Made by a program: the position numbers and the translations under genes
Assembly: GCA_017417385.1 (NCBI GenBank)
Contig: JAFPZF010000007.1
Span: forward strand, 62,001 to 126,000
Length of the DNA: 64,000 nt
Direction of reading: 5' to 3'
Source: Bacteroidales bacterium
GTDB lineage: Bacteria > Bacteroidota > Bacteroidia > Bacteroidales > Marinilabiliaceae
Shown here: positions 45,405-47,570 of the stretch, one piece after another
How positions within the stretch are numbered: position 1 is the stretch's first letter
Layout: each line of letters begins with the position of its first letter
Notes under the pieces: model-generated
What the model saw: the letters and a program-made list of their open reading frames with translations, nothing else
Told to the model about the DNA's origin: nothing
Database searches by the model: none

Positions 45405-45805
45405 TATCTCACACGACGAAGGTAAGAGTCCGATATGCGGACACGGACAAGATGGGCGTAGTATATTACTCCAACTACGCCGTATACTATGAGGTAGCGA
45501 GGACAGAGATGTTCAGGGAGCTCGGGTTCCCATACAGCGAGATGGAGAAAGCCGGGATAGCGTTACCAGTGAAGGAGTTGAGCTGCAAGTATCATAAATC
45601 GGCGCGATATGACGAGCTGCTGAGTGTCGAGGCGAGGATAGAGACCATGCCGACGGCGAAAGTCGTGTTCAACTACGAGATCAAGAACGAGGCTGGCGAG
45701 CTATTGAACGAAGGCAGCACGACACTCGTCTTCGTCAACATCGAGACGGGTCGTCCGACGAGGGTGCCGAAGGTATTAGCTGCCGCCATGGAGAAGTATT
45801 TCTAG
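45401..45805 (+). CDS. Hotdog-fold acyl-CoA thioesterase (YbgC-like)
   Basis: A 134-residue 4HBT hotdog enzyme. The catalytic region RYADTDKMGVVYYSNYAVYYEVARTE contains the conserved Asp. The open frame extends to 45248 inside the flavodiiron gene, but the ATG at 45401 overlaps that gene's stop and gives the usual length. It is likely to hydrolyse short-chain acyl-CoA and is often near envelope genes. The stop codon (45803-45805) is shared with the terminal inverted repeat of a MITE-like element. Confidence 0.9.
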   Translation: MISHTTKVRVRYADTDKMGVVYYSNYAVYYEVARTEMFRELGFPYSEMEKAGIALPVKELSCKYHKSARYDELLSVEARIETMPTAKVVFNYEIKNEAGELLNEGSTTLVFVNIETGRPTRVPKVLAAAMEKYF

Positions 45806-46066
45806 GGACCTTCTATAAATTGTTTTTTCTGCGTTGGCGTTGCCTTCATTCCTCACGCTCGGCAATTTGTGCAAGCACATTGCTCTCGCTTAATCGGAAT
45901 GTTGCATTCAACTTTGAAATCCTCATGTACTTCAGTACACTCCGGTATTCAAAGTCTCATGCGCCTTGGCTTCGCCTCTTGTGCTCTCGCTCGGCAAATT
46001 GCAAGCAAGCTTGCTTTGCACTCGCTTAATCGCACAAGTGAAAAACCTAATTTCTAGAACTTCCCT
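45804..46066. mobile_element. MITE-like element, copy 1 (block order A-B-C-D)
   Basis: A 263-base non-coding unit bounded by imperfect terminal inverted repeats, AGGGACCTTCTATAAATT and TTCTAGAACTTCCCT (inverse AGGGAAGTTCTAGAA). Its internal blocks are B (45844-45903), C (about 45907-45967) and D (45968-46060). Block C is a long imperfect hairpin (AACTTTGAA...TTCAAAGT), and D contains a near-palindrome around GCAAGCAAGCTTGCTTTGC. No transposase is encoded. The left end overlaps the thioesterase stop codon. Confidence 0.8.
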
Positions 46067-46110
46067 ATAATGTTTTGGTAAAAAAGATTTAATAATTCGG
46101 ATAGTAGCAT

Positions 46111-46118
46111 TAACTTTG
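46111..46118 (+). promoter_or_regulatory. -7 element between the two MITE copies
   Basis: A perfect TAACTTTG at 46111-46118 in the only unique DNA between the copies. No clear TTTG lies at the usual -33 distance. It could start a gmd transcript whose leader contains the whole second copy. Confidence 0.5.
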
Positions 46119-46161
46119 CGGGTTGAAAGGGTCCTGACAGACTAAGCCCAGGACGACAGGA

Positions 46162-46423
46162 AGGAAACTTCTATAAGTTGCTTTTTCTGCGCTACACTCA
46201 ACTTTGAAATCCTCATGTACATCAGTACACTCCGGTGTTCAAAGTCTCATGCGCCTTGACTTTGTCTTCATTCCTCACGCTCGGCAATTTGTGCAAGCAC
46301 ATTGCTCTCGCTTAATCGGAATGTTGGCTTCGCCTCTTGTGCTCTCGCTCGGCAAATTGCAAGCAAGCTTGCTTTGCACTCGCTTAATCGCACAAGTGAA
46401 AAACAAATTTATAGAACTTCCCT
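46162..46423. mobile_element. MITE-like element, copy 2 (block order A-C-B-D)
   Basis: A 262-base copy with the same ends (AGGAAACTTCTATAAGTT and AAATTTATAGAACTTCCCT). The internal blocks are in a different order: C (about 46197-46257) now precedes B (46266-46325), followed by D from 46326. Sequence within blocks is nearly identical to copy 1. It ends 28 bases before the gmd start codon, so it probably lies in the gmd leader RNA. Confidence 0.8.
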
Positions 46424-46451
46424 AAAAGAAAATAACAAAAAGAACAGACAT

Positions 46452-47570
46452 ATGAGCAACAAGGTAGCATTCATTACAGGAATAACGGGCCAGGACGGTG
46501 CGTATCTTGCAGAGTTTCTGCTTAAGAAGGGGTATGTAGTCCATGGACTGAAGCGTAGGACGAGCCTATTCAACACAGACAGGATAGACCACTTGTATCA
46601 GGATCCACATTCAGAGGACAGGAGGTTCTTCCTCCACTATGGAGACTTGACGGACTCGACCAACCTGATACGTCTTGTTCAGGACATACAGCCGGACGAG
46701 ATATACAACCTTGCTGCGATGAGCCATGTCGGAGTGTCGTTTGACACCCCAGAGTACACGGCAAATGCCGATGGCATCGGTGTATTGAGGATACTGGAGG
46801 CTATACGCTTGCTGGGGCTGACAGAGAAGACACGATTCTATCAGGCGTCGACGAGTGAGCTCTTCGGCAAGGTGCAGGAGATACCACAGAAGGAGACCAC
46901 TCCATTCTACCCGAGGTCGCCGTATGCAGTTGCCAAGTTGTATGGATACTGGATAACAGTCAATTACAGGGAGGCGTACAAGATGTTCGCATGCAACGGC
47001 ATACTGTTCAACCACGAGAGCCCGATAAGGGGCGAGACGTTCGTCACTCGAAAGATCACGAGAGCGGTAGCGAGGATAGGACTTGGACTTCAGGACAAGC
47101 TATATCTCGGCAACCTGTCGGCTAAGCGAGACTGGGGGCATGCTAAGGACTATGTCCAGGCGATGTGGCACATCTTGCAGCAGGACCAGCCGGAGGACTT
47201 CGTCATAGCAACAGGCATCACGACCGAGGTCAGGGAGTTCGTCAAGAGGGCATTCGCATACATCGGAGTAACGTTGAGGTTTGAGGGAACCGGCGTTGAT
47301 GAGAAGGGTATCGTCGAGAGCTGCTCGAACCCAGAGTTCCAGTTGGAGAAGGGACGAGTCGTCGTAGAGGTAGACCCGAGGTACTTCCGTCCGACAGAGG
47401 TAGAGCTGCTGATCGGTGACCCGGCGAAGGCAAACAAGAAGTTGAACTGGAAGCCGACATACGACCTGCAGGGCCTGATAGAGGACATGATGCAGAGCGA
47501 CATCAAGGTGATGAAGAAAGAGAAGTATCTGAAAGATGGTGGTTATCAGACGATGAACTACTACGAATAG
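46452..47570 (+). CDS. gmd: GDP-mannose 4,6-dehydratase
   Basis: First step of GDP-L-fucose synthesis: GDP-mannose to GDP-4-keto-6-deoxymannose. The 372-residue extended SDR has the NADP site [12 protein letters not shown] near residue 9, [19 protein letters not shown], the catalytic YAVAKLYGY (Tyr/Lys), and [16 protein letters not shown]. Earlier in-frame codons fall in the MITE, so the ATG at 46452 was used. It is followed 15 bases later by fcl, the next enzyme. The product supports fucosylated surface glycans, as in Bacteroides. Confidence 0.96.

Follow-up and report, generated by a model that had tools for sequence, protein, structure and literature searches.

A family of modular MITE-like hairpin elements in a Bacteroidales genome, with two copies of different unit order upstream of a putative gmd gene

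Two repeated elements made of the same blocks in a different order lie upstream of a putative gmd gene in the genome of a Bacteroidales bacterium. The locus raises the questions of how the two orders arose and whether the copy nearer to gmd serves the expression of that gene. The window is the whole 64,000-nucleotide stretch of DNA that was analysed, and all positions without a locus name refer to it. The original prediction described two elements with inverted ends, 95 bp apart, with block orders A-B-C-D and A-C-B-D. Both the elements and the orders were confirmed, at 45804-46066 and 46162-46423. The features of the locus are as follows.

45804..46066, + strand: copy 1, unit order B-C-D, 263 bp
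45804..45829, + strand: copy 1, left terminal inverted repeat
45837..45904, + strand: copy 1, B unit of 68 bp, a type I hairpin with a mini-hairpin ahead of it
45905..45968, + strand: copy 1, C, a type II hairpin belonging to the 123-bp base element
45969..46040, + strand: copy 1, D unit, a type I hairpin of 72 bp
46041..46066, + strand: copy 1, right terminal inverted repeat
46067..46161, + strand: spacer of 95 bp separating the copies and holding the predicted gmd promoter
46088..46118, + strand: predicted promoter, comprising TTTA (46088-46091), 19 bases and TAACTTTG (46111-46118)
46162..46423, + strand: copy 2, unit order C-B-D, 262 bp
46259..46326, + strand: copy 2, B unit, set cleanly between C and D
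46327..46398, + strand: copy 2, D unit
46399..46423, + strand: copy 2, right terminal repeat, resembling the left-type arm (AATTTATAGAA)
46452..47570, + strand: gmd, putative GDP-mannose 4,6-dehydratase, as annotated in the original prediction

Comparison of the two copies showed the D unit to be 100% identical over 72 bp, the B unit 96% identical and the rest 90% identical. In copy 1 B precedes C, and in copy 2 it separates C from D. Excision of B and D reduced copy 1 to exactly 123 bp and copy 2 to 122 bp, and the remainders were 85-94% identical to 123-bp elements. A swap of blocks inside near-identical copies had been proposed. Since removal of the units turns either copy into the same base of 122-123 bp, this description was given up; judged by this comparison, a single base element underlies copies 1 and 2, and the two units that both carry occupy different sites in it. 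The D unit was absent from all other fetched loci. Its identity in the two copies, together with this absence, suggests that it was probably exchanged locally or inherited together. Copy 1 does overlap the end of the thioesterase gene, as had been noted, for the first bases of its left end complete the TAG stop codon (45803-45805). The only open reading frames inside the two copies were small, chance ones.

The genome is a draft of 3.6 Mb in 97 contigs and the family totals come from searches of it. A search with copy 1 gave 85 BLAST matches, and the terminal repeat gave 213 matches compared to 19 for a reversed control. About 76 elements with paired ends were read from the fetched stretches of the genome. 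A search with the terminal repeat was among the checks that the original prediction had called for; the family comes to roughly 100 MITE-like elements with many block orders. Their sizes are 32-38, 123, 192-200, 260-268, 328-338, about 401-406 and 472-477 bp; sizes in between are scarce. These sizes form a ladder of approximately 123 + n x 69.5 bp into which 56 of the 63 elements of at least 100 bp fall within 7 bp. The 123-bp form is made of a single type II hairpin (C) with the terminal repeats. Each step of the ladder is a 68-72-bp type I hairpin unit; these units fall into at least four classes, distinguished by the outer stem. The shortest forms of 32-38 bp (L050, L052, L067, L084-L086) are fused ends only, without C. 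At least 30 unit arrangements were found, nested ones included. B-C-D occurs in ten elements, C alone in six, B-C in five and C-D in four; in further arrangements units lie within the tip of C or within other units. Eight of the 106 type I hairpins are chimeric and pair arms from two different classes, which is the expected product of deletion or crossing-over between units, and from these hairpins we infer a recombination route between units. The ladder, the unit grammar, the two-class hairpins and locus L014, described below, all support the earlier suggestion of MITE-like elements assembled from modules with recombination through the hairpins.

Terminal inverted repeats, short length (32-477 bp), high copy number (about 100) and the lack of a coding gene are all features of a MITE and all were observed. 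Target duplication is present across the family and weak at both window copies. An A+T-rich duplication of 4 bp, defined as three flanking bases plus the first base of the element, was exact in 16 of 76 elements where 2.1 were expected, and none of 2000 shuffles gave as high a number. The offset was picked after two had been tried, and this choice slightly favours the count. Duplications were present from the shortest to the long forms. At copy 2 no convincing duplication was seen and at copy 1 only three of the four bases match.

The ends point to the IS5 family. The ends of IS1169, GAGGAGTTCTATAAATT and GGTGAGTTCTATCAATT, differ from the element end by 3-4 mismatches of 17, so that the terminal repeat of IS1168/IS1169 is nearly equal to that of the window elements, as expected for derivation from this group. 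A multicopy IS in genome G012 starts with GGGGACTTCTATAAATT and encodes a protein that shares 44-46% identity with IS1169 transposases over its first 66 residues. This relative of IS1169 appears to insert at TTAA-like sites, its left flanks being TTAA, TATA and TTTA (only one end was seen). Unlike IS1168/IS1169, the window elements are gene-free and no transposase relative was found in their genome. No IS1169-like protein was found in the genome or genus of the window, nor any DDE_Tnp_1 (PF01609) domain in the genome. The enzyme that mobilises the elements would thus be missing or lost, lie outside the assembled sequence or belong to some other type. A MITE does not strictly require a resident autonomous partner, which may be lost.

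The structure of the type I hairpin is strongly constrained. The two sides of its internal loop, TCACGCTCGG and CTCGCTTAATC, remain constant while the stems vary. In 27 aligned sequences 95.6% of cells pair, two-sided changes occur in 11 of 16 pairs, and there are 72 two-sided compared to 3 one-sided cells, which none of 500 shuffles reached. Two-sided changes were found in all 16 pairs of 47 matches from other genomes, in an alignment that was fitted to the model and is hence biased towards it. A test free of this bias came from stretches of the IMG/VR viral collection chosen by the loop alone. Outer stems were complementary in 33 of these 36 distinct stretches, whereas re-paired arms gave a mean of 6.3 and a maximum of 13, and a mini-hairpin lay ahead in 31 of the 36, while shuffled flanks had one in roughly a quarter of cases. 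That one-sided intermediates are so scarce suggests correction of one arm by the other, and the resemblance of the copy 2 right end to the left-type arm would fit such correction. Intrinsic terminators were set aside as no T-run was seen, and integron attC sites and CRISPR were considered informally and also set aside.

Relatives of the elements occur in other genomes. Of 71 genomes of the host's bacterial family, 27 matched the type I model and 28 the 123-bp model; for either model these came from ten of the 21 genera. In other genera the core of 123-127 nt is retained and the terminal arms differ yet stay self-complementary (own score 14.4 versus 3.9 across genera); identity was 0.72 for the core, 0.63 for the arms and 0.54 for random arms. 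G070, from another genus, has the 123-bp form only, and the 123-bp model matched none of the remaining 14 species in the window's genus. Target duplications were undetectable in 21 copies of the 125-bp relatives from other genera. A phylum-wide scan with the hairpin model gave matches in at least 3 of 395 genomes, a lower bound as 13 candidates were scored per genome. An exact 19-base word from the element was found, among other genomes, only in a Prevotella MAG, in single hairpins; a match in Chitinophaga lay in a stretch without hairpin arms and was judged to be due to chance. No DNA match was found in GenBank phage or plasmid records, and a literature search of partial coverage returned nothing on the element family.

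Several of these hairpins lie in other settings. Loci L239-L273 are 35 stretches of the IMG/VR viral collection, which may be phage, prophage or host DNA, containing type I hairpins with many different stems. In G059, of the window's genus, genes are immediately preceded by type I hairpins that lack MITE ends (L117-L122). Their 3' arm leads into TAACTTTG, with TTTG 19-20 bases upstream in some, and the hairpin may overlap or carry a promoter. One of them adjoins a sub-threshold match to the PreQ1 riboswitch (L119:1619-1665, - strand; 29.4 bits versus a gathering score of 39) near a queC-like gene. Two loci of Prevotella MAG JAEEQB (L062, ~1928-1990, and L063, ~1171-1233) have a type I hairpin in the apparent signal-peptide region of two lipoprotein-like genes, with TATGCATT repeats on the flanks. 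Tandem arrays of type I hairpins, spaced by about 72 nt, were seen in L145 and at G040:C313:7255-7533.

Three known systems bear comparison. The BOX elements of Streptococcus pneumoniae are arranged as boxA-boxBn-boxC with ends related to an IS (PMC3049150). BOX and the window family are both short, interspersed and rich in secondary structure, with IS-related ends and internal modules that vary in number. However, the window family has several unit classes, varied order and nesting, and a different IS type. The likeness is one of way of working, fixed end modules enclosing a variable number of internal modules, as was found here, and no membership or homology is claimed. BrickBuilt and MITE464 of Porphyromonas gingivalis have IS5-type ends and internal repeats in variable number (PMC4596501), and are, like the window family, MITE-like elements of Bacteroidales. 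Their repeats are 23- or 41-base direct tandem repeats, whereas those of the window family are 68-72-bp hairpins with covarying stems. REP and BIME palindromic repeats, including tagged palindromes (PMC3733652), are also extragenic hairpins in high copy. In the window family, by contrast, no GTAG or CGTC foot was noticed and the hairpins have two stems and a fixed asymmetric internal loop within composites bounded by terminal inverted repeats.

The differing block order might be thought to be an assembly error, since these are repeated elements in a draft assembly. This is very improbable. Both copies are internal to one 150-kb contig, many other arrangements exist, and the C-B-D order was found again on a separate contig (L014, arrangement B-B-C-B-D), a recurrence that itself argues against such an error. 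A second proposal makes copy 2 a conserved leader with a regulatory role at gmd, its hairpins tuning or switching GDP-fucose synthesis. The consensus promoter of Bacteroidota is TTTG-N19-21-TAnnTTTG. The perfect -7 element noted in the spacer was confirmed (46111-46118), and with TTTA, instead of TTTG, 19 bases upstream a transcript from ~46125 would include copy 2. A plausible predicted promoter directly upstream thus supports the view that the gmd leader would consist mostly of copy 2, which also outdoes shuffled sequence in folding (z -4.75). However, the opposite strand, antisense to gmd, folds better still (z -6.40), as the minus strand does in 63 of 63 elements. The readable gmd upstream regions of four relatives (L188, L189, L190, L192) have other neighbours and no element. 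Dozens of similar elements adjoin other genes, and most of the family lies elsewhere. A regulatory role for copy 2 is possible but unsupported, and we regard a conserved gmd leader as improbable. Copy 2 may have an incidental effect on gmd expression.

Another explanation takes the type I and II hairpins to be RNA structures, or single-stranded DNA, of the minus strand, protein-bound or acting in trans, which the MITE ends merely disperse. On the minus strand the internal loops are rich in purines and do not vary, whereas the stems covary. The 1x1 mismatches of the plus strand are mostly C.T (142), which read as G.A on the minus strand, mismatches of A.C to G.T number 13 to 4, and the IMG/VR stretches selected by the loop have the complementary stems described above. 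However, the minus strand is not preferentially sense to the flanking genes, which relative to the plus strand were ++ in 25 cases, -- in 13 and mixed elsewhere. Stepwise selection for RNA pairing should leave one-sided intermediates, and the hairpins of the window's genome show almost none. No match reached the gathering score in Rfam 15; the best sub-threshold one, to mir-790 at copy 2 (E 0.026), is to a eukaryotic microRNA family and was judged to be due to chance. This explanation is a real possibility though not the one we favour. Somewhat more doubtful is the idea that the type I hairpin represents a novel kind of structured, mobile nucleic acid found in Bacteroidales and perhaps in the phages that infect them. 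Such a unit of 70 nt, a hairpin together with a mini-hairpin and with an internal loop that is invariant and rich in purines, would insert, nest and re-pair its stems by a single-strand process, and would have colonised and remodelled an ordinary MITE.

The reading that we consider likely is that the two copies are non-autonomous IS5-type MITEs on a 123-bp base, to which hairpin units were added and then gained, lost and fused by recombination. The base would be a 123-bp hairpin element whose ends relate it to IS1168/IS1169. Type I units of 68-72 bp would have joined it, in this lineage, before C, after C, in the tip of C or in other units. Units would be gained, lost and fused as their shared, near-identical arms and mini-hairpins recombine with each other. 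Transposition would be in trans by an IS1169-like transposase, modules would change by ectopic recombination, and the stems would be kept paired through arm-to-arm correction. The elements are most likely selfish and the position of copy 2 in the gmd leader would be happenstance. A transposase acting on double strands would require much less constraint on the internal structure than is seen, so a further function is possible.

The locus is a cautionary case, as an element may lie in the leader of a surface-glycan gene without regulating it. Fixed loops with free stems, in several genera and in contigs of a viral collection and without a significant Rfam match, point to an unrecognised structural recognition event. 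About 100 close relatives with a readable grammar make this genome's family a natural set for the study of module gain, loss, nesting and stem replacement.
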